The notes under the pieces: generated by a model
What the model was told of the DNA's origin: nothing
Databases searched by the model: none
The model's input: the letters and a program-made list of their open reading frames with translations, nothing else
DNA from: Methylotenera sp.
GTDB lineage: Bacteria > Pseudomonadota > Gammaproteobacteria > Burkholderiales > Methylophilaceae
Length of the DNA: 64,000 nt
Direction: 5' to 3'
Assembly (NCBI GenBank): GCA_030652995.1
Contig: JAUSAG010000040.1
Span: 1 to 64,000, forward strand
Made by a program: the position numbers and the translations under genes
In this document: positions 1,658 through 23,321 of the stretch, in pieces
How the letters are laid out: each line of letters begins with the position of its first letter
Numbering within the stretch: position 1 is the stretch's first letter

Positions 1658-1670
1658 GGGATAAATTCCC
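1658..1670. promoter_or_regulatory. GGGA-N4-TTCCC operator, copy 1
   Basis: GGGATAAATTCCC, a near-perfect inverted repeat with the same spacing as six other sites in this island. Reading leftward, a -10-like TATCTT lies at 1629-1634, which puts the operator centre near -42 from the predicted start. It sits between the stop of the mxaD-like gene (1686) and the candidate sRNA. Confidence 0.6.
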
Positions 1671-1685
1671 GAAATTTAGTGCACT

Positions 1686-2237
1686 CTAGCTTCCTGCTTC
1701 TAATACTTTGGTCAAACCAACCGCAGCCGCATCATAAAGCTCGTTAATGGCTTTATTCGCTGCTGGGTTATCTGAACCCTCAGGAGCTTCCATCGTGTTG
1801 GCTTTATTGTAAAAACGTGCGGTTAAAGTGACGGTAGATGTTCCTGCCGCTTTGCCTGCTTTTACTTGCGCAACAGTGCGGTAGTTGCTCACGGCAATGG
1901 TGCTATCTTTGCCATCCACCATTTTGTAATCTAGCTTCATGTCGGTATCATTGGCTTCACGTAGTTTTTCTAAAAATGTGGTGCCGTTTTTAAGTGTTAC
2001 CAAACGGTGTGGCAATGTTTTATCCGATTCGGCATCTTTTCTATCCTCCAACTTCACATTGGTCACATCGGGGTGCCATTTGCCAATCGCACCAAAATCT
2101 TTAAGTAGCGCCCATGCTTTTGCTGGCTCGGCTTTTACTTCAAACTCTTTGACCACTTTTTGACCACTTGGGCCGTGTGCGAAGGTTGTTACAGGTAACA
2201 AACATGCCACAGCTAACATTGCTAAAAACTTTTTCAT
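1686..2237 (-). CDS. mxaD: MxaD-like periplasmic SRPBCC protein (copy 1)
   Basis: A 183-residue protein with a signal peptide (MKKFLAMLAVACLLPVTTFA) and one SRPBCC/polyketide-cyclase-like fold. The start of the mature part (HGPSGQKVVKEFEVKAEPAKAW) and the WHP motif (FGAIGKWHPDV) match MxaD proteins. MxaD is encoded in mxa clusters and has been linked to efficient electron transfer between methanol dehydrogenase and its cytochrome. It is the last of three tandem paralogues (with 2269 and 2863), probably co-transcribed from the xoxJ/xoxG side. AGGAA lies eight bases before the ATG. The general family is secure; the exact role beside xoxF is inferred. Confidence 0.82.
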   Translation of the reverse strand: MKKFLAMLAVACLLPVTTFAHGPSGQKVVKEFEVKAEPAKAWALLKDFGAIGKWHPDVTNVKLEDRKDAESDKTLPHRLVTLKNGTTFLEKLREANDTDMKLDYKMVDGKDSTIAVSNYRTVAQVKAGKAAGTSTVTLTARFYNKANTMEAPEGSDNPAANKAINELYDAAAVGLTKVLEAGS

Positions 2238-2268
2238 GCTGGCGATTCCTTTTACTTATTTATTTAAA

Positions 2269-2808
2269 TTACTGCACTTCAATCACTTTCTTCAAATTAG
2301 GCAAACCTGCGTCATACAGACCCTCAACCGCTTTTACAGCCGTTGCGTTGTCCTCACCTGCTTTTGGATTCACATCATTGGCTTTATTGTAAAAGCGGCC
2401 TGTCCAAGTGACTGTTGATTCATCAGCCATAGGGCCAGCTTTGACCGTCATTACCGCACGGTAACCACTCACAGGTAACACGCCTTCTACAATTTTGTAT
2501 TCCAATTTCATTTCTTCATCTGAATTTATAGTTTGCTTTTCTAAAATCGTGCCGCCGCCTTTTAAAGTAAGCAAACGGTGAGGTAATCGCACACCATCTT
2601 GATCAGCCTTAGTTTCAGTTTTGGTGCTTTCTACTGCTGGATGCCATTTGTGAATTGCGCCAAAATCTTTCACCACCGCCCACACCTTGGCCGGCTCAGC
2701 TTTAATGACCACCTCACGAATGACTTTTTGTTGACTAGGGGCGTTTGCGGCACTTACCGATAATGACAATAGTAAGGCTACGGGGAAAAAAATAGGCGAC
2801 CATTTCAT
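2269..2808 (-). CDS. mxaD: MxaD-like periplasmic SRPBCC protein (copy 2)
   Basis: A 179-residue paralogue of the two flanking genes. The signal peptide is MKWSPIFFPVALLLSLSVSA. The mature protein begins NAPSQQKVIREVVIKAEP and carries the FGAIHKWHPAV motif of the MxaD/SRPBCC group. A longer reading from 2841 is open, but the ATG at 2808 is preferred because GGAG precedes it by ten bases and the signal peptide starts there. It lies 31 bases upstream of copy 1 and 54 bases downstream of copy 3. It lacks the HGP or CGP tripeptide found at the mature start of the other copies, having NAP instead. Confidence 0.82.
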   Translation of the reverse strand: MKWSPIFFPVALLLSLSVSAANAPSQQKVIREVVIKAEPAKVWAVVKDFGAIHKWHPAVESTKTETKADQDGVRLPHRLLTLKGGGTILEKQTINSDEEMKLEYKIVEGVLPVSGYRAVMTVKAGPMADESTVTWTGRFYNKANDVNPKAGEDNATAVKAVEGLYDAGLPNLKKVIEVQ

Positions 2809-2862
2809 ATTGTAAAAACTCCATAAAATTGTAAAATTCACTTAACTTCTTAAAAAAAATAC

Positions 2863-3417
2863 TTAATGGCTTGCTTCAATAACTCTTTTTAAATTGAGCA
2901 TACCTACGTCGTACCAGCGCTCTACTGACTCAATCGCAGAGGCATTATCTTGGCCGACTGGCGCTTGCATGGCGTTGGCTTTGTTATTAAAACGCCCGAC
3001 CCACGTCACAATGGTTTCACCTTCAGAGTGGCCGGTCTTCACTGTCAGAGCATCTGAATAGTTACTCGCAGCAATATCACCCTGTATCATCACTACACCC
3101 AACTTCATCTCACCGGCTTGTGTTTCGCGTTGCTTTTGAATAATTGTGCCGCCCTCTTTAAGCTTGAGTGTGCGATAGCTAGTTTCTTTGCCGTCTGAAT
3201 CTGACTTGCGCTCCAGTACAGCTCCAATAACATGGGGATGCCATTTGTGCATAGCACCAAAATCGCTCACGATCGCCCAAACCTGTTCAGGCCCAGCTTT
3301 AATCACAATTTCTTTTGTGACTTTTTGCGGACTAGGGCCACAAGCAATTACGTTTAAAGGTAAGATGATGGCAGCCAATAATATTACTGCCTTCGATGGG
3401 ATGAACTTTTTCATCAT
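2863..3417 (-). CDS. mxaD: MxaD-like SRPBCC protein with probable lipoprotein signal (copy 3)
   Basis: A 184-residue MxaD-type protein. The signal sequence (MMKKFIPSKAVILLAAIILPLNVIAC) ends in VIAC, a lipobox, so unlike its two paralogues this copy may be lipid-anchored. The Cys occupies the place of His in copy 1 (CGPSPQK versus HGPSGQK). The SRPBCC domain has FGAMHKWHPHV. The frame is open back to 3570, but that would overlap the upstream cytochrome gene by 146 bases. Starts at 3417 or 3414, just after that gene's stop (3425), fit an operon. The Shine-Dalgarno sequence is weak, suggesting translational coupling. Confidence 0.8.
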   Translation of the reverse strand: MMKKFIPSKAVILLAAIILPLNVIACGPSPQKVTKEIVIKAGPEQVWAIVSDFGAMHKWHPHVIGAVLERKSDSDGKETSYRTLKLKEGGTIIQKQRETQAGEMKLGVVMIQGDIAASNYSDALTVKTGHSEGETIVTWVGRFNNKANAMQAPVGQDNASAIESVERWYDVGMLNLKRVIEASH

Positions 3418-3424
3418 GAAACAG

Positions 3425-3883
3425 TTACTTCTTACTTGGTGTTTTCTCGGTGAGTACATAAGCAATATAGTCACCTTTTTCTTTTGGCGTACAATCGCTT
3501 CCAACCACTTCGTTACAATGTTTGGTAAATTTCTTTTCCACATTTGCAATTGAACTAAAACGCTTAGCATTTACCGCTGGCGCAAGTGGCTTAATGGACT
3601 TACCTGTCACTATGTGTTTACCGACGTCTGCGGGGTTGGTGGTATGGCAAGATGCACAAGCAATGGCTTTTCCTTGATTTCTGGTATCGCCTTTAAACTG
3701 TATCACCTCACGATTAAAAAAAATCTTACCTTCTTCAGCCGAGGGCTCTGTGTAGCTTGAGTCAGCCGCTTTAGCCGCTGCGGCATATTTGTCAGCAATC
3801 TTCTGTGCTGTTACAGCATCAGCCACGGCACTAGTAGAAGCTGCACCTAATGCAGCCAGCAATATATAGCGAAAAAATTTCAT
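3425..3883 (-). CDS. DUF1924-type periplasmic monohaem cytochrome c
   Basis: A 152-residue secreted protein (signal MKFFRYILLAALGAASTSAVA). It has one haem-binding motif, CASCH, near residue 78 and a C-terminal segment KHCNEVVGSDCTPKEKGDYI, with two further Cys, typical of DUF1924 cytochromes. This family is related to small high-spin-type haem proteins; its function is not established. AAGGAG lies before the ATG. Its place inside the xoxG-propeller-mxaD operon suggests a part in electron transfer or haem-linked sensing during methanol oxidation, but that is inference. Confidence 0.8.
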   Translation of the reverse strand: MKFFRYILLAALGAASTSAVADAVTAQKIADKYAAAAKAADSSYTEPSAEEGKIFFNREVIQFKGDTRNQGKAIACASCHTTNPADVGKHIVTGKSIKPLAPAVNAKRFSSIANVEKKFTKHCNEVVGSDCTPKEKGDYIAYVLTEKTPSKK

Positions 3884-3920
3884 TTAAAACTCCTTAAGTT
3901 ACATTGATAAAATTGTGTTA

Positions 3921-4907
3921 TTAATGAGGATTACCAATAAATTCCCCGAATGCGCGACTTTTTGAGCCTGTAGCGACACTATTAATTTTTTGATTGGTTT
4001 TAGCATCAATGACGTCTATAGCATCATCCATCCAACTGGCAACGTAGATACGATTTTGTTTGGCGTTGTAGCTAATACCTTCTGGAAAACCACTCACAGG
4101 GATTGTTGCAATGACTTTTTGCAATTTAGTATCAATGACCGAAACACTATCTGCGCCTGTATTGGTCACGTAAGCACGCGACCCATCTGGATTAGTGGTT
4201 ACACAATAAGGATGCTCACCTACTTTAATCGTAGCGATGATGACGTCACGGCGCGTATCAATGACTGAAACTGAGTTACCTTCCACATTCACCACGTATA
4301 AATTTCTGCCGTCACCTCCCAATGCCATGCCAAAAGGATGCTTGCCGACAGCGATTTTATTCACTACTTTTAAGTTACGCACATCAATCACGCCCACTTC
4401 ATCACTATCACGATTGGCTACGTACAAACTGGCGCCTTCACGGCTAATCACCATACCTGCTGGCGCTTTACCCATCGCCACTTCTTGATAGGTTTTTCCT
4501 GCGTCAACATCTAGCAACTTATCTGTATCAAACACAAAAATACGATCATGAAACCAATCAGCTACAAATAACTGCGAAGCTGTTTTACTTAAGGTTAGAC
4601 CTACAGGCGCAATTTCCAACTTAACTTCACCAATCGCTTGATTCGTCATCATGTCGATAATTGAAACTGAACGGCTTTCAACATTAGACACATACAAACG
4701 ATTTTGGCTATGATCAATAGCGATGCCGACGGGAGCCTTACCTGTGGGAATCGTGGCCACGACTTGATCAAGTCGCAGATCAACCACCGAAACAGTGTCT
4801 GCGCCTTGATTGGTAATGTAAGCAAATGGCTCAGCCACTACATTAGAACTTAGCAGTATTAAAATAGCCGTTACCGTAAATTTGAGCACTTTATTCCATT
4901 CAGTCAC
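3921..4907 (-). CDS. periplasmic YVTN beta-propeller protein (second copy)
   Basis: A secreted beta-propeller of about 328 residues with repeats such as YITNQGADTVSVVD, YVSNVESRSVSIID, YVANRDSDEVGVID and YVTNTGADSVSVID. It is related to the protein at 470-1453 and to propellers encoded with PQQ-dependent dehydrogenases. The signal peptide includes KFTVTAILILLSSNVVA. No ATG is available. GTG at 4907 has AAGG ten bases upstream and is preferred over GTG at 4937. It lies just downstream of the xoxG-like gene and upstream of the DUF1924 cytochrome, in one operon. Confidence 0.83.
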   Translation of the reverse strand: MTEWNKVLKFTVTAILILLSSNVVAEPFAYITNQGADTVSVVDLRLDQVVATIPTGKAPVGIAIDHSQNRLYVSNVESRSVSIIDMMTNQAIGEVKLEIAPVGLTLSKTASQLFVADWFHDRIFVFDTDKLLDVDAGKTYQEVAMGKAPAGMVISREGASLYVANRDSDEVGVIDVRNLKVVNKIAVGKHPFGMALGGDGRNLYVVNVEGNSVSVIDTRRDVIIATIKVGEHPYCVTTNPDGSRAYVTNTGADSVSVIDTKLQKVIATIPVSGFPEGISYNAKQNRIYVASWMDDAIDVIDAKTNQKINSVATGSKSRAFGEFIGNPH

Positions 4908-4970
4908 TTGAAAAAGACCTTGGTGTTTACGACCCACACCAAAGTGTTATTGCTTATTAACGACCAGCGA

Positions 4971-5663
4971 TTACCATTTAATGTTTTTAGCATCACCACG
5001 GAAATTACCGCGGATAAAGTAAATAATCCGCCACATGTCATCTTCTGTTTTTACAAGTGCGCCTTGTGCAGGCATAGGGCCTACTACATTTTCACGGCCT
5101 TTACGGGTGTAGCCTTGCTTCATCAGCTCATCACTTCCTAGCGCTATTAAACGGAACAATGTATCGTCATCAGCACCATACACCCACGTTTCATTTGAAA
5201 GTGGTGGACACATACCACCACCGCCATTGCCGCCGTGGCAGCCATTACAGCTTACGCCCATGTACTTTTTCTTGCCTGCTTCAACTAAATCGGGGTTCAT
5301 TGTCGTATATGAGTACGGGTTTTTTAATGTGCCTTTAGCGGCCGACATCGCAACATCAATGGGCGATTTATCTGATCCTAAAGCTGGAATCGCAGGTGCT
5401 GTAGATTTTTTCTTTTGTTCGGGTATTTTGAAGCCATCTGCGCCTACAGCTGTTGCGGCAACAGCTTCTGGTGTTACTGGTGCATCAGCAGTAGCCACTA
5501 CAATTTTTTCCGGCATCGCCTTTAGCGTGGTTGTTACCACCTTTTTCACTTCCACCATCACCGCTGGTTTAGGGCTTTCAGCTGCTTTATCTGTGCTAGC
5601 CGCACACACTGTGATGGACAACATACTTAACATGGCAATGATGCCTGTAAATGCAAATTTCAT
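4971..5663 (-). CDS. xoxG: XoxG-like cytochrome c, electron acceptor of methanol dehydrogenase
   Basis: A 230-residue periplasmic cytochrome. The signal peptide is MKFAFTGIIAMLSMLSITVCA. An Ala/Pro/Val/Lys-rich linker of about 70 residues precedes a single cytochrome c domain with CNGCH (residues 139-143), followed by GGNGGGGMC and a likely axial Met in VVGPMPAQG. This matches the methanol-metabolism-related c-type cytochromes encoded near xoxF. The long low-complexity linker is longer than usual. The ATG at 5663 has GAAAGG upstream; a TTG at 5678 is less likely. Its role as electron acceptor for XoxF is inferred from family and position. Confidence 0.8.
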   Translation of the reverse strand: MKFAFTGIIAMLSMLSITVCAASTDKAAESPKPAVMVEVKKVVTTTLKAMPEKIVVATADAPVTPEAVAATAVGADGFKIPEQKKKSTAPAIPALGSDKSPIDVAMSAAKGTLKNPYSYTTMNPDLVEAGKKKYMGVSCNGCHGGNGGGGMCPPLSNETWVYGADDDTLFRLIALGSDELMKQGYTRKGRENVVGPMPAQGALVKTEDDMWRIIYFIRGNFRGDAKNIKW

Positions 5664-5773
5664 TTCAAAGCCTTTCAAAAAATATAACTACAAATAGCAC
5701 GATTAAAATGATCACTAAAATTACCTTGTAACTATCTAAACATTTAACGCTAAGCGATTAGTTTGGTATGACA

Positions 5774-5805
5774 GATTAAATCCTAAAGAAGCGTAGGATT
5801 TAATC
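5774..5805. repeat. 12-bp perfect inverted repeat (hairpin) between xoxJ and xoxG
   Basis: GATTAAATCCTA (5774-5785) and TAGGATTTAATC (5794-5805) are perfectly complementary around an 8-nt loop. There is no T-run on either strand, so termination is doubtful. It begins 18 bases after the xoxJ stop and could stabilise or process the xoxJ-xoxG transcript. Confidence 0.6.
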
Positions 5806-5823
5806 CTGCCCAACATTAACAGT

Positions 5824-7467: not shown

Positions 7468-7505
7468 CTAACACCCCATTTTGTATAAAACATTATTTAT
7501 AAAAT

Positions 7506-7526
7506 ATTGTTCATTTTTTGAACAAT
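7506..7526. promoter_or_regulatory. 8-bp inverted repeat upstream of xoxJ
   Basis: ATTGTTCA (7506-7513) and TGAACAAT (7519-7526) are perfectly complementary with a 5-T loop, 39 bases before the xoxJ start. It could be an operator or a leader hairpin. It does not match the GGGA-N4-TTCC operator, which was not found here. Confidence 0.35.
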
Positions 7527-7776: not shown

Positions 7777-9678
7777 TTAGTCTAAACGGAATGTAAACAA
7801 TGTACCGCCTTGAGGAATCTTATCTAAACCCGTCGCTTTGGCCATTGCAGTAGCACCGATTGCGCCGTACTTATCTTCCATATCAAGACCTGCTGTTACT
7901 GGTAAACCAATCCAGCCGCCAATACCTGTCCATACAGACACGTATTGTTTGCCTTTGATTTTGTAAGTGATTGGGTTACCGATGATGCCTGAAGCTAATT
8001 TACGGCTCCACACCACTTTGCCTGAATTACGATCAACTGCGCGGAAATCACCACCCAATGAACCGTAGAATGCCAAGCCGCCATCAGTCACTAACACACC
8101 ACTCCAGTTTGGATATGGATCTGATACTTCCCAGATGGTTTTACCAGTTACTACGTCAAATTTCTTCAACTTACCTGTAACACCTGGTTTTTCAGGGTAC
8201 ATATACACGTTAGCAAACACATAAACGGTACCTTGTTGTGTGTGTGTACGTTCTTGTGGCTCATCTTCCATGCACCAGTTATTGGTTGGTACGTAGAATA
8301 GATTTGGCTCTTTAGGATCAACTGCTGCTGGCTGCTGATCTTTACCACCCATTGCAGATGGACAAGCTTGCGTGTTGACATCGCGTGCAAATGGTGAATG
8401 TTCTTTCACTTTTACAGGACGACCAGTTTTTAAGTCAACTTTTTCAGCCCAGTTTACAGTCACAAATTTGTGAGCGCGCAACAATGTGCCGTCTTTACGA
8501 TTTAATACATAAGCGAAGCCATTACGGTCAAAGTTCACTAATGCATCAACTTTTTTGCCATCAATAGCCAAGTTATCAACCAAGATATTTTCGTTCACAC
8601 CATCGTAATCCCATTGATCAAATGGTGTTTTTTGGTATGCCCAAACCATTTCGCCAGTGTCGATTTTACGTGCCATAATGGTCATAGACCATTTATTGTC
8701 GTGCTTACCTACATTGGTTTTTGGATCCACTTCGTTACATTTTTCATGCGTTAAATCAGCGCCTGTGTTACTGCAACGATAAGATGGAGACCAGTGACCT
8801 GGGTTACCTGTACCTGCGTACATAATGCGTAATTTAGGATCATAAGTGAACCACGCCCAAGGTGCGCCGCCACCGATTTTCCACTCATCACCTGGATATG
8901 TGAAACCAGTGTTTTGACCATATAAACCATAGTGCGGGTTAGCTTTATTAGTATCTGGTGTTAAACAAAGATCTTTATCTGAACCTGTGCTATGACACTT
9001 CCACACTTCTTTACCTGTTTTTAGATCATAAGCCACGGTACGACCACGTGCGGCGAATTCATCACCACCAAAACCAGCCAATACTAAACCTTCAGCGACC
9101 ATTGCCGGGCCTGAATGCGTTTCACCTTTTTCTGGGAATGCATGTTTAGTGACCCAAATCTCTTTACCAGTAGTAGCGTCAAGAGCAATCAAGAAACCAT
9201 CTAATGTGTGGAAAACCACTTTATTATCTGCATAGTTCAAACCGCGGTTGATGGTATCGCAACATGCGCGCGGCACAGCAGATTCATCACGATCAGATTT
9301 TTTGGTGTAGTTCCAGATTTGTTTCGGCTGGTCAGGATTTGATAAATCTAACGCCTGAACAATGTTTGGCCAACCTGAAACCATGTACATCATTGGTTTA
9401 CCGTTGTGCTCAACCACGACTGGCTGACCTTCATGACCGCGCAATGTGCCTGAAGATTGTGACCAGATCATTTGTAAGTTTTTAACGTTTTTTGTATTAA
9501 TGTCTTTTAAAGTACTGTGACGATGCATTGCCAAGTTTTGACCTGGTGCTGCCCACATATTGTGGTCTTTACTGCGTTTGATAATTTCTTCATTTGCTGA
9601 CGCTTGACCGACCATGCCCACCAAGGCAACGGCACTCAAGGCAGTAAACATGGCTTTAAATGTCCAAGTTTGCTTCAT
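7777..9678 (-). CDS. xoxF: lanthanide-dependent PQQ methanol dehydrogenase XoxF
   Basis: A 633-residue periplasmic quinoprotein oxidising methanol to formaldehyde with PQQ and a rare-earth ion. The signal peptide ends GMVGQASA. Visible features are the vicinal Cys pair in RACCDT (139-140), the PQQ-contact region GETHSGPAM, tryptophan-docking repeats such as GKEIW and GKEVW, GTGNPGHW, and FDQWDYDG. In that motif D357 is the catalytic Asp and D359 the extra Asp that marks XoxF; MxaF has Ala there. A Cys-containing insertion at about 301-327 makes it longer than the usual ~600 residues and suggests the clade-4 XoxF of Methylophilaceae. GGAGGAA precedes the ATG. An operator lies 135 bases upstream. 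Confidence 0.95.
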   Translation of the reverse strand: MKQTWTFKAMFTALSAVALVGMVGQASANEEIIKRSKDHNMWAAPGQNLAMHRHSTLKDINTKNVKNLQMIWSQSSGTLRGHEGQPVVVEHNGKPMMYMVSGWPNIVQALDLSNPDQPKQIWNYTKKSDRDESAVPRACCDTINRGLNYADNKVVFHTLDGFLIALDATTGKEIWVTKHAFPEKGETHSGPAMVAEGLVLAGFGGDEFAARGRTVAYDLKTGKEVWKCHSTGSDKDLCLTPDTNKANPHYGLYGQNTGFTYPGDEWKIGGGAPWAWFTYDPKLRIMYAGTGNPGHWSPSYRCSNTGADLTHEKCNEVDPKTNVGKHDNKWSMTIMARKIDTGEMVWAYQKTPFDQWDYDGVNENILVDNLAIDGKKVDALVNFDRNGFAYVLNRKDGTLLRAHKFVTVNWAEKVDLKTGRPVKVKEHSPFARDVNTQACPSAMGGKDQQPAAVDPKEPNLFYVPTNNWCMEDEPQERTHTQQGTVYVFANVYMYPEKPGVTGKLKKFDVVTGKTIWEVSDPYPNWSGVLVTDGGLAFYGSLGGDFRAVDRNSGKVVWSRKLASGIIGNPITYKIKGKQYVSVWTGIGGWIGLPVTAGLDMEDKYGAIGATAMAKATGLDKIPQGGTLFTFRLD

Positions 9679-9812
9679 ACTTCCTCCGTGATTAAAAATT
9701 CAACCCCTAATAAAACTGCTGCAATATGTTACAAATTCTTACAATCACAACATGGGTTGAACTATATGCCCGCTTCATTTTCAGCGATTGAGAATTAGTC
9801 CTTCAATTGATT

Positions 9813-9825
9813 GGGATATTTTCCT
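9813..9825. promoter_or_regulatory. GGGA-N4-TTCCT operator, copy 2 (xoxF side)
   Basis: GGGATATTTTCCT lies in the 428-base divergent region between xoxF and the sensor-kinase gene, 135 bases before the xoxF ATG. The leader would be long. A TATAGT hexamer lies between the site and xoxF. The region otherwise holds copy 3 of the operator and no gene. Confidence 0.55.
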
Positions 9826-10054: not shown

Positions 10055-10067
10055 GGGAATTATTCCT
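10055..10067. promoter_or_regulatory. GGGA-N4-TTCCT operator, copy 3 (kinase side)
   Basis: GGGAATTATTCCT lies 40 bases before the annotated start of the sensor-kinase gene. If it acts at about -41, as at the other copies, transcription would begin near 10102. That suggests autoregulation and that translation may start downstream of 10107. Confidence 0.55.
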
Positions 10068-10106
10068 ATACTTAACCGTGAGTACCCCCATTGTGCAGAA
10101 ACGGAT

Positions 10107-11108
10107 ATGGAGACAATCTTGCGGTGTTCCCTTTATCATAATGTTGCAATGCCTACTCAAACTAACCAACCCCATCAAACCAAGCATACAAACTCTCAAA
10201 AACGCTATTGGCGTAGCATTGCACTTGATTTAGCCTGCGTTCCTGCTGCTTTTGTTTGCACCTACGCCTTGTCGAGCTACTTTAACTTTTCTGAGCACTA
10301 CTATGTTTGGGCGAGACAGTATGAGGACAACTTAGATATAGATGAGCTACTACCCGCGTTGTTGGCAAGCTTGGTATCTTTGTTGTGGTTTGCTAAACGA
10401 CGCATCAATGAATCAAAGATTTTGATTAAGAAAAATCACGCATTATTACATCGCGTACTTGAAGTGCAAGAAGATGAGCGTAAACGCATTGCGCGCGATT
10501 TACATGATGATTTAGGGCAGTATCTCAGTGCAATTAAAGCGCAGGCGGCAAGTTTGCTGGTCGATGCTAACAGCTCTGCAGAGGCGCAACTTACCGCCAA
10601 AAGCATTACATCCAGCGCAAACCATGCCTATCAAGCCACCCACAATTTAATATGCGCACTACGCCCGGTAGCTTTAGATGACCTTGGATTATCTGCCGCA
10701 TTAGAGAACTTTATTGACACATGGCGACAGATAAACTCGGTGACGATACAAACTGAGACCATTAGCCAAGTAAACTATCAGCTACATATTCACGGTGATA
10801 TTGATCGCTATCACGAAACCGTTAACATTACCGTGTTCAGAATCGTACAAGAAGCACTGACCAATATTGCCAAACATGCCCACGCGAAAACGGTGCTGAT
10901 TGACATTGAAAGTAAAGCGAATTATTTAACTATAGCGATTACTGACGATGGCGTGGGCTTTGATATGTCCAAGAAAAATTCTGGCTATGGCTTGCTTGGG
11001 ATAGCAGAGCGCGTTGAAGCGCTGACTGGCAACATGGAAATAAATAGCCACACCGATGCAACCCTTGCTAATACCGGTACAAAAATTAACATTCAAATAA
11101 AGGTTTAA
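10107..11108 (+). CDS. NarX/MoxY-type sensor histidine kinase
   Basis: A 333-residue kinase with two predicted membrane segments (about 38-58 and 80-97), a short loop between them and no recognisable extra sensor domain. The HisKA_3 motif ERKRIARDLHDDLGQYL has the phospho-accepting H133, and the HATPase domain has TDDGVGFD and GYGLLGI. It overlaps nothing and is five bases upstream of its response regulator. It is transcribed divergently from xoxF, so it probably controls methanol oxidation, possibly in response to methanol, formaldehyde or lanthanides. No start has a clear Shine-Dalgarno sequence. ATG 10107, TTG 10119 (GGAG upstream) and ATG 10149 are all possible. Confidence 0.85.
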   Translation: METILRCSLYHNVAMPTQTNQPHQTKHTNSQKRYWRSIALDLACVPAAFVCTYALSSYFNFSEHYYVWARQYEDNLDIDELLPALLASLVSLLWFAKRRINESKILIKKNHALLHRVLEVQEDERKRIARDLHDDLGQYLSAIKAQAASLLVDANSSAEAQLTAKSITSSANHAYQATHNLICALRPVALDDLGLSAALENFIDTWRQINSVTIQTETISQVNYQLHIHGDIDRYHETVNITVFRIVQEALTNIAKHAHAKTVLIDIESKANYLTIAITDDGVGFDMSKKNSGYGLLGIAERVEALTGNMEINSHTDATLANTGTKINIQIKV

Positions 11109-11113
11109 ACCTC

Positions 11114-11749
11114 ATGAAAACAGCCGTTAAAGTTTATTTGGTTGATGACCATGCCGTGGTACGTGAAGGCTACAAACACCTGCTTGAAAAAGCCAACATC
11201 AAGGTGGTTGCAGAAGCAATGACTGGTGAAGAAGCCTATAAAAATTATGATGGGATCAAGCCTGATATTGTCATCATGGATTTATCCATGCCTGGGATGG
11301 GCGGCATGGAAACCATTAAAAAATTAGTAGCTAAAGACAAGCACGCTAAAATACTCGCGTTTAGCATGCATGATGAAGTGGTTTACTGCACACGCGTCAT
11401 GCAAGCAGGCGCAAGTGGCTACGTCACTAAATCAAGCGCCCCTAACGTGTTAGTGGAAGCTGTGTTTGCGATTGCCGCAAACAAAAAGTATATCAGCCAC
11501 GACCTTGCCCACAAAATAGCCACTCAACGCCGAAAACCAGACTCCGCCTTAGATCACTTAACACCACGGGAATTTGAAGTATTTAGATTACTCGCAAAAG
11601 GGCTGTCGCTAGAAGAAGTAGCCAATACCCTCAACCTGAATTACAAAACCATTGCCAACCACCAAACACATCTTTTACAAAAGTTGCATGTAGAAAATCG
11701 CTCTCAATTAGTACTGGCGGCAATTAAGCTCAATATCCTGGAAGTTTAA
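11114..11749 (+). CDS. NarL/LuxR-family response regulator
   Basis: A 211-residue regulator. The receiver domain (about 5-120) has the acidic pair D11-D12, phosphorylation site D56 in IVIMDLSMPG, and the conserved Lys in VTKSSA. The LuxR-type helix-turn-helix follows at about 146-205 (LTPREFEVFRLLAKGLSLEEVANTL). It is coupled to the kinase five bases upstream. Family members bind short inverted repeats, so it is a good candidate to bind the GGGA-N4-YTCC sites of this island. It shares a similar layout with the regulator at 21208-21846. Confidence 0.9.
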   Translation: MKTAVKVYLVDDHAVVREGYKHLLEKANIKVVAEAMTGEEAYKNYDGIKPDIVIMDLSMPGMGGMETIKKLVAKDKHAKILAFSMHDEVVYCTRVMQAGASGYVTKSSAPNVLVEAVFAIAANKKYISHDLAHKIATQRRKPDSALDHLTPREFEVFRLLAKGLSLEEVANTLNLNYKTIANHQTHLLQKLHVENRSQLVLAAIKLNILEV

Positions 11750-11845: not shown

Positions 11846-14050
11846 CTAGAAGTCGTAACGAATACCACCAAATATTTGTCGTTCACGCCCTGCAAACATG
11901 CCATCACGCCTGCTTACTAAGTACTCTTTATCAGCTAAATTATGGGCGCTGAGGAAATAGGTTGCCTTTGAGCCTACTGGTTTGAAATTAACCGATGCAT
12001 TTAAGAGTGTGTAGGCTGGAATGTTGCCTGATAAACCAGTTAAGTTGCCTGCAGCTAGTGCGCGCGCGAAGGCATCAGGCTGTTGCTCGCTGACATAATC
12101 CACACCAAATCGCGCATCAAGGCCAATGGGGTGTTGATAACCTATGTTTAATGAGGCTAAATGACGCGGTGCGTAAGGGAGACGACCTCCATCGGTAATG
12201 CCATCGCCGTTCAAACCTGGTTTTGGTCCATCTTTTTTAAACTCTGCATTAAATAAGTTAGTGTATGACCCCATCAGATACACATTGTGTGAGGTGTCAT
12301 AAATCGTACCAAAATCAACACGGCCAGCAAGTTCAACACCGGTTTGCTCAGACTCCCCGCCATTAAAGAAACTACCATTAGCCTCAACGACAATGTCGTC
12401 AAATGCAGTATGGAACAAAGTGGATTCAAAACTGATGCCTTTGAAATATTTAGAACGTACTCCAATTTCCCAGTTAGTGCTGGTCTCTGGTTTAACTTTA
12501 CTGACGACTGCGTTATTAGCTCCAGTCGCAAAAATATCACGGTCTGGGCGTGGCGGCGCAAACCCTTTATGCACCCCTGCAAACACCGTGGTGTTTTGGA
12601 TGCCATTCCATGCCACACCAAAGCCAGGCAAGACTTCTGTTTGATTGTTAGTTAAATTAGATGCCGCATTATTTTGCGGTTGACCTTCGGCACGTTTTAC
12701 ATCGGTTTTTATGGTCAAGTCTTCCACGCGCACGCCAGGGGTAAGCGCCCAATTGCCAATATTGAAAGTATTTTGTGCGTAGTAGGATTTTGCTTCCACT
12801 TCAATGTCAACTAACTCACGATGTCCCGTGCCGCCATTCACCCCAAAAAAACTCTCAGCATAACTTTGGCTTTGGAATCTTGGATCCGCACCGCGAAATT
12901 GGTTTCGTTCAATATCTTCTTTATGGTATCTAAACCCAACCACGGCATCACTTTTAATACCAAACAAATTATGTTGGAAATCCAAGCGTGGCTCGACACC
13001 CCAGTAGGTATACTCACGCGGTCTCCAACGTCCGCCACATTGTTCAGCGTTAGCTTCCGTGGCGACACCCAGGCCTTCACAACGGTCCATGACTGAACGA
13101 CCACCCAAGGTACCAGAATCATTAATCTGCCTAAAAGATGCGCGCTCGGTATCCACATAGTAGGCTTGCGTTGAAAGTTTTGTGGTGTCGTCGATTTGGA
13201 AAATATGTTGCAACTGTGCTGATTGTCGCTTATGTTTAAACACGTCGTTTTTGCCTGTAGGTGCTTGGAATCTATCTTCGTTATATTCCACCACGCCCAA
13301 ACCAGTCTCTGTTACATGTGAGTCTTCTTCGTAATGCCCTACTTTTGCTATCAATGTTTGTCTATCTGTCAGGTTAAGCTGGCCTTTGATGGTAAATTCT
13401 TGCATATCAAAATCATGATTATCGCGAACACCATCACCTTTATTTTGCAAAGCATCAATCATAATGCCACCGCGCTCACCGCCATAACCAACATTTGCAT
13501 GTAAGCCGGTGAAATCGTTATTCCCTGCCATAGCTTGTACGCTGCCGGCAAAACCATCTTTAGGTACAGGTTTGGTCACAAAGTTAATCATGCCCCCGAT
13601 AGTTTGTGGCCCGTATAAAATTTGGCCTGACCCTTTGACTACTTCTATACGTTGTAAACGCTGCAATGGCGTTGAGAAATGTGCCGCTGGGTCGCCATAA
13701 GGCGCTAGAAATAATGGCACACCGTCTTCCATCAAAAGCGTTCTTGAAGAACGACGAGGATCTAAACCTCGCACACCAATATTTAACCCCAAACTCATAG
13801 AATCTTCGCCAGTGACAATATGCACACCAGGTACAGTATTTAGCGCTTCTTTAATTGAGAAAGGTCTTCTAGCCTCTAGCTCTTTTTCATCAACCACTGA
13901 AAATGAACCAGGAACAGACTCTAACTTATCAGGCAAAATTCCGGTTACAGTCACAGCTTTCAATTCAATCGACTGCGGATCTGCTGCATAAGCTAACTGT
14001 GCAAACACTAGTGGCAATAGTGACGCTATTACTCGTTTTTTGAACCTCAT
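11846..14050 (-). CDS. TonB-dependent outer-membrane receptor, candidate lanthanide-uptake receptor
   Basis: A 734-residue receptor of the FecA/siderophore type. It has a signal peptide (ends QLAYA), a TonB-box region (SIELKAVTVTG), a plug domain (about 40-165, with LNIGVRGLDPRRSSRTLLMEDGV and YGPQTIGGMINFVT), and a 22-strand-type barrel ending GGIRYDF with a terminal Phe. Two Cys (in DRCEG and EQCGG) lie in a probable outer loop. The gene sits between the xox regulator genes and mxaRSACKL and carries the island operator 87 bases upstream. Uptake of a lanthanide-metallophore complex is therefore a plausible role, but the substrate cannot be read from the sequence. Confidence 0.85.
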   Translation of the reverse strand: MRFKKRVIASLLPLVFAQLAYAADPQSIELKAVTVTGILPDKLESVPGSFSVVDEKELEARRPFSIKEALNTVPGVHIVTGEDSMSLGLNIGVRGLDPRRSSRTLLMEDGVPLFLAPYGDPAAHFSTPLQRLQRIEVVKGSGQILYGPQTIGGMINFVTKPVPKDGFAGSVQAMAGNNDFTGLHANVGYGGERGGIMIDALQNKGDGVRDNHDFDMQEFTIKGQLNLTDRQTLIAKVGHYEEDSHVTETGLGVVEYNEDRFQAPTGKNDVFKHKRQSAQLQHIFQIDDTTKLSTQAYYVDTERASFRQINDSGTLGGRSVMDRCEGLGVATEANAEQCGGRWRPREYTYWGVEPRLDFQHNLFGIKSDAVVGFRYHKEDIERNQFRGADPRFQSQSYAESFFGVNGGTGHRELVDIEVEAKSYYAQNTFNIGNWALTPGVRVEDLTIKTDVKRAEGQPQNNAASNLTNNQTEVLPGFGVAWNGIQNTTVFAGVHKGFAPPRPDRDIFATGANNAVVSKVKPETSTNWEIGVRSKYFKGISFESTLFHTAFDDIVVEANGSFFNGGESEQTGVELAGRVDFGTIYDTSHNVYLMGSYTNLFNAEFKKDGPKPGLNGDGITDGGRLPYAPRHLASLNIGYQHPIGLDARFGVDYVSEQQPDAFARALAAGNLTGLSGNIPAYTLLNASVNFKPVGSKATYFLSAHNLADKEYLVSRRDGMFAGRERQIFGGIRYDF

Positions 14051-14136
14051 GACTATCCTTACTTTTATAGTGATAAAGTAAAAATTATCAAGCCAATTAA
14101 AAATCAGGCCTATGCCACAAGTTCACTTTCTGCTAT

Positions 14137-14149
14137 GGGACAAACTCCC
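14137..14149. promoter_or_regulatory. GGGA-N4-CTCCC operator, copy 4 (TonB receptor)
   Basis: GGGACAAACTCCC lies 87 bases upstream of the TonB receptor ATG, between it and the end of mxaL. A weak -10-like CATAGG (14109-14114) would put the site near -41. Confidence 0.6.
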
Positions 14150-17045: not shown

Positions 17046-17048
17046 CAC

Positions 17049-18964: not shown

Positions 18965-18988
18965 AATTTAGCGCGATGCAATGTTAGA

Positions 18989-20005
18989 TTACGGTGTAGG
19001 TACGCTATGTAAAATTGCCTGCGTATAAGCCTTAGCCAACCAGCTACGTTGCAACTCATAAATCGGCGTAAAAAACACCCGATGCGCCACCACTTGGTGA
19101 AACACCGCCGCTACATCTTGTGGTGCAAGTTCCAAACGTCCATCTAACCAGGCAGATACCTTAGCGGCACGTACTAGCATGCTCGTACCGCGCGGGCCCA
19201 TGCCGGCAATCATCAGCTCATCCATCTCCACATCAGGTAGCTGGATGCCGTAATCTTGCGGTCTATGCGTTGCTTTGCGTAAATGCTCTACAAAATCTTG
19301 CACTGCATCACCTGCCGTTACTGAATTTTGTATCACGGGTGCAAATGGCGTAAGCGCATCAAAGCCTACATTGCCTGCGGTGACTTGTTCTATCAGCTTA
19401 TCAGTATCGTGAAAACGCGAATCAAATGTTAGCGCTTTATGCACGCTACTATCGTTAGCGGGGTTAATTTCCAACTCCATTAAAAAACGGTCACGTGCTG
19501 CGCCCGGCAGTTCGAATGTTTCTTCTTTCTCCACCGCATTACGATCAGCAAATACCAGTAAATGCGGAAAGTAATACTCACGGTTAAACGCAGTAATACT
19601 GCGCTCAGCCATCACTCGCAATAACAAAGAATGTACTTGTGGCCGGGCGCGGTTAATCTCGTTAAAAAAGAATACAGATAGATTCTCGCCTTGCGCTAAA
19701 ACTGGTCCGGGATCCACACGTGGCTTGCCGTCTTGGTCAATATATGTGTGATAAATCAAATCTTGCGGCATTAAATCAATCGTGCCTTCAATGCGCTGAT
19801 AACCACCACCTAAACCACGTGCCGCCGCGCGTAACAACGTAGTTTTACCTACACCAACATTACCTTCAAGCAACACATGTCCACGTGCAAAAATCGCAAT
19901 TACTAAAGATCTGATTGCAGGCGTTAAGCCAATGACTGTGCTATTTAACTCTTTTTCATACGTTAATGCGCGATTGCGCCAATCCTCAAGCATGATTTCC
20001 GACAT
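18989..20005 (-). CDS. mxaR: MxaR, MoxR-family AAA+ ATPase
   Basis: A 338-residue AAA+ ATPase. Walker A is GNVGVGKT (48-55), Walker B is VFFFNEINRA, and the MoxR C-terminal lid follows. MoxR ATPases act as chaperones for metal insertion or complex assembly, here of the PQQ methanol dehydrogenase. It is the first gene of the mxaRSACKL operon. Its upstream gap carries two copies of the GGGA-N4-YTCC operator, so the whole operon is probably under the same control as xoxF. Confidence 0.92.
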   Translation of the reverse strand: MSEIMLEDWRNRALTYEKELNSTVIGLTPAIRSLVIAIFARGHVLLEGNVGVGKTTLLRAAARGLGGGYQRIEGTIDLMPQDLIYHTYIDQDGKPRVDPGPVLAQGENLSVFFFNEINRARPQVHSLLLRVMAERSITAFNREYYFPHLLVFADRNAVEKEETFELPGAARDRFLMELEINPANDSSVHKALTFDSRFHDTDKLIEQVTAGNVGFDALTPFAPVIQNSVTAGDAVQDFVEHLRKATHRPQDYGIQLPDVEMDELMIAGMGPRGTSMLVRAAKVSAWLDGRLELAPQDVAAVFHQVVAHRVFFTPIYELQRSWLAKAYTQAILHSVPTP

Positions 20006-20096
20006 AGTAGCCCCTGAAATTTTCTAGCCGTATTTTTATTACGATGCTAAATTTATTAAATGGCTCTATTACACGCTAAAGGCTGATTTTAATTTA

Positions 20097-20109
20097 GGGA
20101 GAAACTCCC
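20097..20109. promoter_or_regulatory. GGGA-N4-CTCCC operator, copy 5 (mxaR promoter)
   Basis: GGGAGAAACTCCC lies 92 bases before the mxaR ATG. A -10-like TAATAG (20066-20071, minus strand) would place it near -44. The 354-base gap (20006-20359) also holds copy 6 and a terminator; no gene was seen. Confidence 0.65.
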
Positions 20110-20214
20110 GATTTACACTAGGATATTGGCTACGAATAGTAAGCCAGTTTTATGATTTACGATGGTCCAACCACTAATGATTGCGCATATCCAATTTACA
20201 CGGCTTGTTAACTT

Positions 20215-20227
20215 GGGGGAAATTCCT
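20215..20227. promoter_or_regulatory. GGGG-N4-TTCCT operator variant, copy 6
   Basis: GGGGGAAATTCCT keeps the spacing of the other sites but has G for A at position 4. It is 118 bases upstream of copy 5, centre to centre. It may be a second, weaker site for mxaR. No convincing -10 element was found near it. Confidence 0.4.
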
Positions 20228-20317
20228 AGTAAATTGGTGACGCATTCCCTTACCGAAATTTTAACCAGTAGCTAAAATTACAACCAGTTAATCTCCAAAG
20301 TTAACTAGCAATACATT

Positions 20318-20352
20318 TAAAAGCCACGCGAAGCAATTTGCGTGGCTATTTT
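20318..20352. terminator. intrinsic terminator after the Sel1 gene
   Basis: AGCCACGC (20322-20329) pairs with GCGTGGCT (20340-20347). On the minus strand four Ts follow; on the plus strand ATTTTTT follows. It lies just beyond the Sel1 stop at 20360. Confidence 0.7.
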
Positions 20353-20359
20353 TTACAAC

Positions 20360-21184
20360 CTAATGTGGGGCTGGTTTAGTTTCAGTAGGTAACTTAGCAT
20401 GCCAGTTACTAGCCGCCAACTTTGCCGCAGCAATATCTTCAGCTTTCATGGTTTTAGCCATTGCATCCCGTGCTTGGGCAGCGCCTACGTGATCTTGCTT
20501 GGCGGCTAGATCTAACCACATATAGGCTTCTTTAGTATCTTTTTTAACGGCTATTCCATCACGATACAATAAACCCATTTCATATTCTGCTTTGTGATGG
20601 CCTTGCTCGGCAGATTTACGAATCCAGCTTTCTGCTATATTCACATCTTTTTTAACACCGTCACCATCTAAATAGTTTTTACCTAATGCCAACTGTGCTT
20701 TGTAATGATTTTGCTCAGCGGCTTTACGATACCAGTGATTAGCCGACTTAGCATCCGCCTTAACGCCACGCCCCACTGTATAAAGCCTGCCCAGCGCAAA
20801 TTGCGACAAAATATGGTCTTGCTTGGCCGCTTTTTCAAACCATTTAAATGATTCCGCATCGTCTTGCTTTACACCCTGCGCTTGCGCGTACATGACACCT
20901 AAGTTGTATTGCGCATCCTGATGCCCTTGTGCACCTGCTTTTTTGTACCACTCTGAGGCCTGTGCGTAGTCTTGTTTGACGCCTTGCCCTTCGTCATACA
21001 TCATGCCCAGAATATGTTGTGACTGCTTATCGCCTTTATCAGCCAAAGGTTTAAATTCTTTAAGCGCCGTTGCAAAATCACGTGCCATAAAAGCGGCTTT
21101 GCCTTCATCAAATCCTGCTAAGCTTTCACATGAAGCAAACGCCATAAATGCAACCAGCATACTGTTAAGTAATTGTTTTTTCAT
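20360..21184 (-). CDS. secreted Sel1-repeat protein
   Basis: A 274-residue protein with a signal peptide (MKKQLLNSMLVAFMAFASCESLA) and about six Sel1-like repeats of 36 residues (ILGMMYDEGQGVKQDYAQASEWYKKA, LGVMYAQAQGVKQDDAE). Such repeats mediate protein contacts. It starts 23 bases after the response-regulator gene and is probably co-transcribed with the kinase pair. The periplasmic kinase sensor part could be its partner, but this is inference. Confidence 0.85.
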   Translation of the reverse strand: MKKQLLNSMLVAFMAFASCESLAGFDEGKAAFMARDFATALKEFKPLADKGDKQSQHILGMMYDEGQGVKQDYAQASEWYKKAGAQGHQDAQYNLGVMYAQAQGVKQDDAESFKWFEKAAKQDHILSQFALGRLYTVGRGVKADAKSANHWYRKAAEQNHYKAQLALGKNYLDGDGVKKDVNIAESWIRKSAEQGHHKAEYEMGLLYRDGIAVKKDTKEAYMWLDLAAKQDHVGAAQARDAMAKTMKAEDIAAAKLAASNWHAKLPTETKPAPH

Positions 21185-21207
21185 AATTTTCCTTTGTTAA
21201 AATTTGA

Positions 21208-21846
21208 TTACCCTTCAACTAAACCATGACGTATTGCGAAACGCACCATGTCTATAGGGCTCGTTACGCCTAGTTTCTGTTTAATCATAGTGTAATAATT
21301 GGCAACGGTTTTTTGGCTGATTTTAAGCATTTCAGCCACTTCTTCCACCTTCTTACCTTCTGCCAACAATCTAAATACCTCAAACTCTCTGCCTGAAAGT
21401 TGATGAATCGGATCATCTTGCCCCGATAGTGTTTCCAGTGCTATTTTTTGCGCGATTCCTGCACTTAAAAAGGTTTTTCCATTGGCGACTTCTAACACTG
21501 CGCTTGTTAAGTCTTCCGTTGCGCTCGTTTTGCTGACATAGCCTTTTACCCCAGACTTGATGGCTTGAGAGGCAAACGATGCGGTTTCATGCATGGAGAA
21601 AATAACAATTTTAGCCGCTGGATAGCGCTTAATAATTCGCCGGGCAGACTCTAGGCCTCCCATGCCGGGCATGGAAATATCCATCACGACGATATCTGGC
21701 TTTAACTCTCCATAACTCTGATATGCCTGCTCACCTGAATCAGCTTCTGCAATCACTTCTACGCGTTTATTAAGCTCCAACAAGCGTCGTAAACCTGATC
21801 TAACGACGGCGTGATCATCGACCAACATCAACTTAATCGTGATCAT
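21208..21846 (-). CDS. NarL/LuxR-family response regulator (MoxX-like)
   Basis: A 212-residue regulator with receiver domain (D10-D11, phospho-site D56 in IVVMDISMPG, Lys in YVSKTSA) and a C-terminal LuxR helix-turn-helix (LSGREFEVFRLLAEGKKVEEVAEML). Its ATG overlaps the kinase stop by one base (TAATG). Paracoccus uses a similar pair, MoxX and MoxY, for methanol oxidation. It is a second candidate binder of the island operator. Confidence 0.88.
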   Translation of the reverse strand: MITIKLMLVDDHAVVRSGLRRLLELNKRVEVIAEADSGEQAYQSYGELKPDIVVMDISMPGMGGLESARRIIKRYPAAKIVIFSMHETASFASQAIKSGVKGYVSKTSATEDLTSAVLEVANGKTFLSAGIAQKIALETLSGQDDPIHQLSGREFEVFRLLAEGKKVEEVAEMLKISQKTVANYYTMIKQKLGVTSPIDMVRFAIRHGLVEG

Positions 21847-23252
21847 TAAGTAACACTTTTCGCAACAATTGCTTGTTTAGGCAATTTAACCATTATTCTA
21901 GTCCCTTGATTTATCATGTCTTGATTTTGTCCATCATGGTTTAAAGGGGTTGGACTTCTGGATGACTCAATGCTCATCTCACCCATCAAACCTTGAATAC
22001 GCTCTTTCATACCTGCCAGCCCAAAACCTTCCGCAGTAACCGTTGGATCGAAACCTACGCCGTCATCTTCAATATGCAGAATAATAAATTTTTCATCTTG
22101 CTTCATGCTAATGGACACTCGACGGGCATTGGCATGCTTAGCAATATTGGTTAAACACTCCTGCACCACACGGTATGCAGTAATAGAGACCGCTTCATCA
22201 ATAACACCCACATTACTTACAATATTATGAATAATATTGACGTTTCTACATCGCTGACGCCAATGGTGAATTAGTTCGCCTAAAGCCAGACCCAAGCCGA
22301 GCTCATCCAAAGCACGCGGTCGTAAACGCTGTAAAATTTCATGCACCATGTCCATCATTTGGCGCGTAACACTGCTAATGGCTTGTGCACTTTCTTTAGC
22401 AAGAGATAATTTCTTACCGTTCAAAATCGCGCTAGCATCCACATGAATAGCCGTTAAATACTGTCCAATTTCATCATGGATATCACGCGCCAAGCTTTTA
22501 CGTTCATCTTCTTGCAATCGAATGATTTGTTGCGTTAATCGGTGGTTATTTTGTGTGCTACTTTGCAAAGCACCCGCCATGGCATTAAATTTTTGACCAA
22601 TTCCCTTCAATTCAACCTGCTTAAAATCTGGCAACCTGCTGTTGAACTGACCCTGCTCCATTTGCGTTAAAGCCTCTAAAATTTTACCGACAGGCATAAA
22701 TGTATATTTCACTGCAAAATAAACCAGCACATTGATCAACACAAAAAATATTGAGGCTAAACTAAGCAACCCAATAGTGTCATTCCATACTTCGGCTATC
22801 TCGTAACTTGGGTCAGGCGTCACCACCAACTCCCCCATATAACGCCCGCTCAATATGATATTTCTCGTTTGCGCCTGCATTCCGGCACCCGATAAACTCA
22901 TTGCATTTGCAAACCAAGCCGGTGGTGAATTTTGGTCTGTTTTTTGCTGTTTATTGCGGTTAGTTTCACGCAAATTACCGTTAATATCATAAAATTCTAT
23001 TTTCAAGTGTCTGATATTACCCAAATTTTTCAACCTAAAAATTGAAGCTTCCTCCGTGTTGTTAATCCAACCAAAATCAGAGCTGTAATGCAATATCTCT
23101 GCATCCAATAAATGTAATGCCAAATTAGAGGTAGAAGTAACTTCCGCACGAACGTCTTCACTTGCATTTTTTACGACAAATACCGCACTTACGCTTAACA
23201 ATAGCAATAGCAAGCCGGTAATGATCAAATTTAATTTAAGCTGAAGACTCAT
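21846..23252 (-). CDS. MoxY-like sensor histidine kinase with HAMP domain
   Basis: A 468-residue kinase. A membrane segment at 9-27 is followed by a periplasmic domain of about 130 residues, a second membrane segment (about 158-182), HAMP (about 183-235), a HisKA_3 motif EDERKSLARDIHDEIGQYL with H259, and an HATPase domain (IEDDGVGFDP, GFGLAGMKERI). Unlike the kinase at 10107 it has a real periplasmic sensor region. Its promoter carries the operator with a good -10, suggesting autoregulation. Confidence 0.9.
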   Translation of the reverse strand: MSLQLKLNLIITGLLLLLLSVSAVFVVKNASEDVRAEVTSTSNLALHLLDAEILHYSSDFGWINNTEEASIFRLKNLGNIRHLKIEFYDINGNLRETNRNKQQKTDQNSPPAWFANAMSLSGAGMQAQTRNIILSGRYMGELVVTPDPSYEIAEVWNDTIGLLSLASIFFVLINVLVYFAVKYTFMPVGKILEALTQMEQGQFNSRLPDFKQVELKGIGQKFNAMAGALQSSTQNNHRLTQQIIRLQEDERKSLARDIHDEIGQYLTAIHVDASAILNGKKLSLAKESAQAISSVTRQMMDMVHEILQRLRPRALDELGLGLALGELIHHWRQRCRNVNIIHNIVSNVGVIDEAVSITAYRVVQECLTNIAKHANARRVSISMKQDEKFIILHIEDDGVGFDPTVTAEGFGLAGMKERIQGLMGEMSIESSRSPTPLNHDGQNQDMINQGTRIMVKLPKQAIVAKSVT

Positions 23253-23281
23253 ATGAACTTATTTTTTAATGACTTAGGCAT

Positions 23282-23321
23282 AGTATAGATTTTGATTGCT
23301 TTCATCACGGGAAAAACTCCC
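23282..23321 (-). promoter_or_regulatory. kinase promoter with GGGA-N4-CTCCC operator, copy 7
   Basis: GGGAAAAACTCCC (23309-23321) is followed, reading leftward, by a good -10 hexamer TATACT (23282-23287). The predicted start near 23275 places the operator centre at about -40. No -35 consensus is visible; the operator overlaps where it should be, as expected for an activator-dependent promoter. Confidence 0.65.

Follow-up and report, generated by a model that had tools for sequence, protein, structure and literature searches.

The intergenic gaps of a xox/mxa gene island in Methylotenera sp. (assembly GCA_030652995.1, contig JAUSAG010000040.1) carry a recurrent inverted repeat, GGGA-N5-TCC(C/T), within the 64,000-nt stretch analyzed here (hereafter, the window). 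We consider it fairly probable, based on sequence comparison, that this repeat serves as operator for MxaB, a response regulator whose regulon would be activated while xoxF4, the genome's other methanol dehydrogenase gene, would be repressed via a small RNA. A sequence-only reading of the window had reported seven repeats, at 1658, 9813, 10055, 14137, 20097, 20215 and 23309, in the form GGGA-N4-YTCC(C/T). All seven coordinates hold and the repeats are real, the symmetric and proper form being GGGA-N5-TCC(C/T); the observation is confirmed, and its interpretation is partly supported. That reading saw none in the other intergenic gaps and overlooked one at 5795-5807. The sites and their predicted promoter elements are as follows, with transcription starts placed from -10 hexamers only.

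23309..23321, minus strand: putative operator of mxaY-mxaB, GGGAGTTTTTCCC on the minus strand, palindrome centre at about -42.
Within 23280-23287, minus strand: predicted -10 of mxaY, TATACT/TACTAT.
20097..20109, minus strand: putative operator of mxaR, centre at about -42, with a -10 TGTAAT at 20068-20073 (weak -10 peak); read on the plus strand, it has a third half-site AGGA at 20120-20123.
20215..20227, plus strand: putative operator of small RNA 1, centre at about -65; GGGG-N5-TCCT, a one-step variant, with GGGA forms at the equivalent place in relatives.
20237..20249, plus strand: degenerate second operator copy, GTGA-N5-TCCC, at about -42 of small RNA 1.
14137..14149, minus strand: putative operator of the TonB-dependent receptor gene, centre at about -65, third half-site GTGA at 14123-14126, -10 GATAAT at 14084-14089.
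10055..10067, plus strand: putative operator of a second kinase-regulator pair, third half-site GTGA at 10078-10081.
9813..9825, minus strand: putative operator of xoxF1, AGGAAAATATCCC on the minus strand, centre at about -65, third half-site AGGA at 9799-9802, -10 TATAGT at 9761-9766.
5795..5807, minus strand: the overlooked putative operator, AGGATTAAATCCT, third half-site AGGA at 5781-5784, upstream of a cytochrome c gene (4971-5678); no clear -10 stands at the expected column in this one sequence.
1658..1670, minus strand: putative operator of small RNA 2, centre at about -65, third half-site AGGA at 1644-1647.

The pattern GGGANNNNYTCCY had eight matches in the window, representing six distinct places (1658, 9813, 10055, 14137, 20097 and 23309), whereas 100 shuffled windows averaged 0.44 and never exceeded 3. 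A looser form, GGRANNNNYTCC, was marginal, with eight matches versus a shuffle mean of 3.0, and eight were reached in 2 of 100 shuffles. Across the whole genome (2.66 Mb) no enrichment was found: the strict operator, GGGA-N5-TCCC, occurred 13 times versus 12 for the reversed control, a background count that tells against a dedicated operator. Only the clustering and intergenic position of the strict sites are unusual genome-wide. Four of the 13 lie within this 22-kb island, where about 0.1 would be expected by our own arithmetic, and eight are intergenic by open reading frame (ORF) calling (the four island sites, another upstream of xoxF4, and three in other parts of the genome). One strict site, in contig C31, falls inside a gene that we take to be uvrB and was rejected as regulatory. 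The extended pattern RGGA-N5-TCCY-N10-RKGA was found at six places in the 2.66 Mb, none of them outside the island, against 2 for its control; the pattern had been set from four of the six, and the new ones are 5781-5807 and 20097 read on the plus strand.

To profile the repeat in relatives, we examined up to 20 kb of sequence surrounding each of 40 mxaY orthologues in Methylophilaceae (782,109 bases in total), taken from the best of 101 among 120 family genomes with an mxaY match at E ≤ 1e-40; these are kin genomes, hence the counts are not independent events. GGGA-Nk-TCCC occurred 62 times at k = 5 and 0-6 times at each other k from 0 to 12, and the control AGGG-N5-CCCT occurred 7 times. Fifty-seven of the 62 spacer-5 sites are intergenic, and two of the remaining five are mxaY sites under an over-long ORF start. 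Relaxed forms of the operator, sought within 350 bp upstream, were detected at mxaY in 32 of 40 relatives, at tonB in 10 of 10, at the kinase gene in 5 of 5 (three of these with only 34–36% identity), at a propeller gene in 11 of 12 (two with only 27% identity), at xoxF in 8 of 11, at mxaR in 4 of 12 and at a yncE-like gene in 1 of 12. The three xoxF misses are other PQQ (pyrroloquinoline quinone) enzymes (25–39% identity), as are two of the eight matches (about 40% identity). None was found in this set upstream of mxaB, sel1, mxaL, mxaK, mxaC, mxaA or mxaS, and a control with a 4-bp spacer matched one mxaY and one propeller-gene upstream region. The background-frequency check proposed with the sequence-only reading thus gave a count at background, yet conservation at orthologous promoters is strong, so we regard that check as too crude.

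Two further sets of loci gave similar profiles. Operators within 400 bp were detected in 10 of 13 xoxF1 loci (86–97% identity), and 47 of 80 returned mxaY loci were scanned in named genomes. In the latter, the mxaY operator was found in 17 of the 21 loci L216-L236, including those of Methylotenera, Methylophilus, Methylovorus and Novimethylophilus and three Methylophaga metagenome-assembled genomes, which have it as AGGA-N5-TCCT; it was found in none of 26 further loci, among them the other two of the five Methylophaga loci. That a common short palindrome clustered here by chance is extremely improbable: the genome count equal to its control and the marginal result for the loose form in the window are what it would predict, but neither the spacer specificity nor the positional conservation across 40 genomes fits it. 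Strict operators also stand upstream of ORFs of about 1230–1260 residues at L116:8584 and L118:11119, in two genomes without the mxaY site; by eye, the L116 ORF has the look of a TonB-type receptor.

The anticipated enrichment upstream of xox and mxa genes was limited beyond xoxF1. Among the 16 loci L167-L182, examined for MxaF-type promoters, a relaxed site was present in six, all of them among the 14 with the MxaF-type DFAG motif, and at least two of these six sites lie in a gap shared with a kinase gene; we rejected MxaF-type genes as operator targets because the sites are too sporadic (6 of 14 DFAG loci). xoxF4 has its own upstream site in this genome (C33:32553). Given that a relaxed site was found in only 2 of 30 genomes, it was treated as chance or species-specific, and direct operator control of xoxF4 was set aside.

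The positions of -10-like hexamers suggest two promoter layouts. Counting from the first G, TATAAT-like hexamers at mxaY sites score highest at column 37 (mean 2.63; the runner-up has -1.32), placing the palindrome centre near -42, and the mxaR peak is at the same column. At xoxF, the propeller gene, tonB and RNA 1 the peaks are at columns 59–61 (xoxF 60, score 3.27, next -0.91; propeller gene 60, 1.67; tonB 61, 0.34; RNA 1 59, 0.96), which puts the palindrome near -65. A third half-site, RKGA, follows TCCY by 9 or 10 bp in 28 of 37 sites of the -65 layout versus 2 of 33 mxaY sites; it was seen in none of seven mxaR sites, with one mxaR site in the wider set. It stands at the place of the first GGGA of the mxaY operator, and is therefore read as the upstream half of a degenerate copy at -42. 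Among promoters having that half-site, TCYY follows it at N5 in three of three for RNA 1, 5 of 11 for tonB and five of six for xoxF, and in none of 10 propeller-gene or seven kinase promoters. In the first layout, then, a single palindrome appears centred at about -42 (mxaY and, more weakly, mxaR); in the second, a strong palindrome at about -65 appears with a degenerate copy 22–23 bp downstream, at -42 (xoxF1, tonB and the small RNAs).

Class II activator spacing had been proposed for four sites. It is retained near -42 for 23309 and 20097, whereas 1658 and 14137 fit -65 better, and 9813 and 20215 are also nearer -65 by comparison with relatives. A centre near -41.5 with a -10 and no -35, as for a class II activator, is seen at mxaY only, where the palindrome fills the -35 place; the strong site at the xoxF1, tonB and RNA promoters lies near -65. 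The site at 20215, previously taken as a second mxaR site, faces a small RNA on the plus strand instead. The start of the second kinase (10107) is only 52 bp from its operator start; should the -65 layout apply there, translation probably begins at a start codon further downstream.

Two kinase-regulator pairs are encoded in the window, together with the following main genes. The names xoxF1 and xoxF4, and those of the mxa genes, were assigned by similarity, position and recall (mxaY by domain and position, mxaB by position).

21846..23252, minus strand: mxaY, sensor kinase with a LapD/MoxY periplasmic domain, HAMP and HisKA_3.
21208..21846, minus strand: mxaB, NarL/LuxR-type response regulator, the favoured candidate binder.
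10107-11108, plus strand: second sensor kinase, probably a target together with its regulator.
11114-11749, plus strand: second NarL-type regulator; the pair spans 10107..11749.
7777..9678, minus strand: methanol dehydrogenase of XoxF1 type; closest solved structure 7o6z.
11846..14050, minus strand: TonB-dependent receptor gene.

Both NarL-type regulators had been named as candidates. The NarL type fits, but the two are not equal. An MxaY-type kinase and a NarL-type regulator are encoded together, and MxaB has a GerE-type DNA-binding domain that is well conserved in an alignment of 15 MxaB sequences; no NCBIfam equivalog above cut-off was found for it among the matches listed. For the second kinase, matches that extend into the N-terminal third were found in about 6 of 120 genomes, plus a weaker one in G107, and distant neighbours occur in g10, g16 and g17. 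In four genomes (G069, G112, G051 and G014, i.e., L110, L112, L113 and L115) the sole match to it at E ≤ 1e-38 is MxaY itself, and these same four retain operators of the -65 layout at xoxF1, tonB or the propeller gene. MxaB is thus the simplest binder, as operators persist in four genomes without a detectable second kinase. It is unlikely that the second regulator (11114-11749) binds the operator, alone or sharing it with MxaB, the two layouts then reflecting two regulators. Its pair does sit amid the sites and has a site of its own, and its recognition helix is similar to MxaB's, with K179, T180 and N183 invariant in the alignment, but the rarity of the second kinase contrasts with the persistence of sites in those four genomes. 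The search used the kinase rather than the regulator as query, and a partnerless or more distant regulator could escape it. On balance, MxaB is the likeliest binder of the operator, and the second kinase-regulator pair is probably a target.

The dehydrogenase predicted to be under MxaB control is of the lanthanide type (XoxF). Its protein carries WDYDGVNE, and its best PDB match is 7o6z, which we take to be an XoxF1 enzyme structure. The aspartate pair of DYD at the metal site is a lanthanide mark, and both aspartates are present in the XoxF1 and XoxF4 sequences. A PQQ-enzyme search of this genome returned three genes, none of them MxaF-like. Relatives of the 7777-9678 dehydrogenase with 86–97% identity occur in only 13 others of 120 genomes, in four genera, and the gene adjoins mxaRSACKL-type genes; horizontal spread is possible.

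Several operators face an intergenic terminator and no gene, suggesting small RNAs. Two such candidates lie in the window.

20285..20354, plus strand: small RNA 1, predicted start, about 70 nt, with a CUCC-loop hairpin and a terminator; -10 TAAAAT at 20273-20278.
1546..1599, minus strand: small RNA 2 candidate, predicted start, with a CUCC motif and a terminator; follows site 1658.

RNA 1 combines a promoter-like site and a predicted intrinsic terminator in an intergenic gap, and is also present in relatives behind the equivalent operator. Its terminator has compensatory changes in 6 of 10 pairs, and its CUCC loop sits on a stem of 6–9 bp that was equalled by 0–66 of 1000 shuffles (g1, g22 and G048/G057 members). 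The RNA 2 hairpin was no better than shuffles, as were most CUCC hairpins of RNAs outside the RNA 1 family. CTCCA lies exactly 78 bases from the site start eight times, versus 0.15 expected (235 oriented sites). No Rfam family matched the window at gathering score; the best local matches were STnc450 for the RNA 1 region (22.7 bits, cut-off 37, on the other strand) and one of 19.6 bits (cut-off 115) for the RNA 2 region. A covariance model of RNA 1 matched strongly in 9 of 120 genomes, with a single match per genome, and gave six further weak matches. In L092 and L217, a site like 20097-20123 (plus strand) stands upstream of RNA 1 with a ATGGTCCAA stretch in common, and a second, longer transcript may exist.

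The candidate target of RNA 1 is the xoxF4 start. A search for starts with TTTGGAG in the genome gave 44 versus 23 for the control, with xoxF4 among them; few of these were translated, and xoxF4 and C9:81669 were followed. xoxF4 has a match in 51 of 60 family genomes. Positions 20288-20304 of RNA 1 form a perfect 17-nt complement of the ribosome-binding site of xoxF4 (TTAACTTTGGAGATTAA), a result reached in 0 of 300 shuffles. This is the longest match for RNA 1 in 499,584 strand-bases of this genome, the RNA gene aside (next, 15 and 14 nt), and by duplex energy the xoxF4 start came out top among 70 start regions. Comparing full-length duplex energies between genomes gave results too noisy to be of use. 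Among 32 operator-driven RNAs compared with the xoxF4 start of their own genome, the match was 10–17 nt in 17, 9 nt in two and 7 nt in 13. Those of g1 reached 16–17 nt in four of seven genomes and 12 nt in the other three.

RNA and leader classes appear to co-vary in part, CUCCAAAG RNAs with CUUUGGAG leaders and CUCCAUAG RNAs with CUAUGGAG leaders. All nine g1 and g22 RNAs, whose motif is CUCCAAA(G), match CUUUGGAG leaders over 12–17 nt; all five g10 RNAs divergent from mxaY, which contain CUCCAUAG, match CUAUGGAG leaders over 11 nt. When leaders were swapped, these classes favoured their own leader type, with exceptions: g1 leaders were matched by g22 RNAs with a value of 14.0 and by g19 RNAs with 12.3, the g19 RNAs reaching only 7.0 on their own leaders. 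Overall, the predicted pairing is strong in g1 and g22, suggestive in g10 and g3, and unsupported in most g19 genomes. Pairing of RNA 2 with xoxF4, which it matches by 10 nt, was rejected for a duplex rank of only 20 of 70; for g19 RNAs, neither the 9-nt match to a second xoxF4 copy in six loci with the RNA nor the 10-nt match to mxaF in two was used. In most xoxF4 leaders (L186-L215, L341-L390), CCTTAGT stands a short way before the ribosome-binding site, including in genomes that lack RNA 1, and the complement ACTAAGG is found in four of five g10 RNAs lying between mxaB and the regulator. At C9:81669 (G000, L314), a 12-nt complement to RNA 1 (TTTGGAGATTAA) stands upstream of a small protein, MVERVSATPAA...

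A possible but doubtful alternative is that the RNAs are operator-driven while their CUCC loop acts on Shine-Dalgarno sequences in general and has different or numerous targets, the xoxF4 match being partly coincidence. CUCC pairs with any GGAG, and this alternative would account for the 7-nt matches, for the other TTTGGAG starts and for the match at C9:81669; but 17 nt at the ribosome-binding site of a methanol dehydrogenase far exceeds CUCC pairing, and matches of 16–17 nt and 12 nt recur throughout g1.

Further observations weigh against an MxaB operator with a repressing RNA. The mxaY site is absent in 8 of 40 orthologues, one of which (L103) has a 4-bp spacer, in 4 of the 21 loci L216-L236 and in two of five Methylophaga loci, and 3 of 13 xoxF1 loci lack the operator. 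The -10 peaks of mxaR (-0.65) and the kinase (column 60, -0.36) are weak, and that of RNA 1 has a near rival at column 75 (0.82). The covariance model found no strong member in 120 genomes beyond those building it. Only 7 nt match in 13 of 32 RNAs, seven of these from g19 and five from g10; control starts in the same regions match by 6–11 nt, swapped genera reach a class mean of at least 12.3, and RNA 2 places xoxF4 no higher than 20th of 70. Finally, G040, G027, G096 and G102 have no RNA 1 match and the same xoxF4 leader, so that leader is not shaped by the RNA alone.

If MxaB binding, transcription starts, expression, pairing and signal direction are as predicted, active MxaY would lead phosphorylated MxaB to increase expression of the mxaY-mxaB operon, of XoxF1 together with the accessory genes of its system, and of the receptor, two MxaB dimers in tandem (-65/-42) recruiting polymerase. 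MxaB would also fire the RNA 1 promoter, and the hairpin loop and flanks of this RNA of about 70 nt would cover the xoxF4 ribosome-binding site and block translation, making the RNA the repressing arm of a dehydrogenase switch. Whether such an arm is general in Methylophilaceae, with RNAs that arose or were retuned several times (CUCCAAAG loops against CUUUGGAG, CUCCAUAG against CUAUGGAG, and others against the xoxF4 start codon), we hold in even balance. With a defined operator, candidate direct targets can be listed, the TonB receptor among them, and the 17-nt match leads one to expect a specific switch at the RNA level between two methanol dehydrogenases. In surveyed metatranscriptomes, clade 4 made up more than half of the xoxF found (PMC12482762), and control of xoxF4 therefore has ecological weight.

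The sequence-only reading knew of no described motif of this form, and a literature search by title and abstract start, partly very broad and thus weak, likewise returned none describing the motif or a small RNA on xoxF, and no operator for MxaB. NarL-family operators are inverted heptamers in a 7-2-7 arrangement. As in NarL sites, the half-site centres here are 9 bp apart and inverted; unlike them, the half-site is TCGGGA, the 5-bp spacer is AT-rich, and the layout is a tandem at -65/-42. RNA 1 resembles MicA, a trans-acting small RNA on ompA, in being a short intergenic RNA complementary to a start region; in comparison with Rfam, it matches no family at gathering score. PedR2 of Pseudomonas putida is presumably of the LuxR type, and we know of no RNA in the PedS2/PedR2 switch. 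That system is likewise a two-component, lanthanide-responsive control of PQQ alcohol dehydrogenases, and the accessible text of its description contains none of the terms motif, binding site, palindrom and consensus (PMC6115532).

The closest likeness is to the MxaY/MxaB lanthanide switch of Methylomicrobium buryatense, which has like kinase and regulator types and, in the accessible part of its account, no operator or RNA (PMC5018670). There, MxaY, active when lanthanum is absent, increases the transcripts of mxaF and mxaB and decreases those of xoxF, and the repression of xoxF is left unexplained in that part of the paper (PMC5018670). These data are transcript levels, whereas the RNA proposed here would act on translation, a further point against it. 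The enzymes also differ, being MxaFI and XoxF in M. buryatense and XoxF1 and XoxF4 here. Within what that account describes, its autoregulation fits the mxaY site found here, and its activation of one enzyme with repression of the other fits the predicted RNA arm (PMC5018670).

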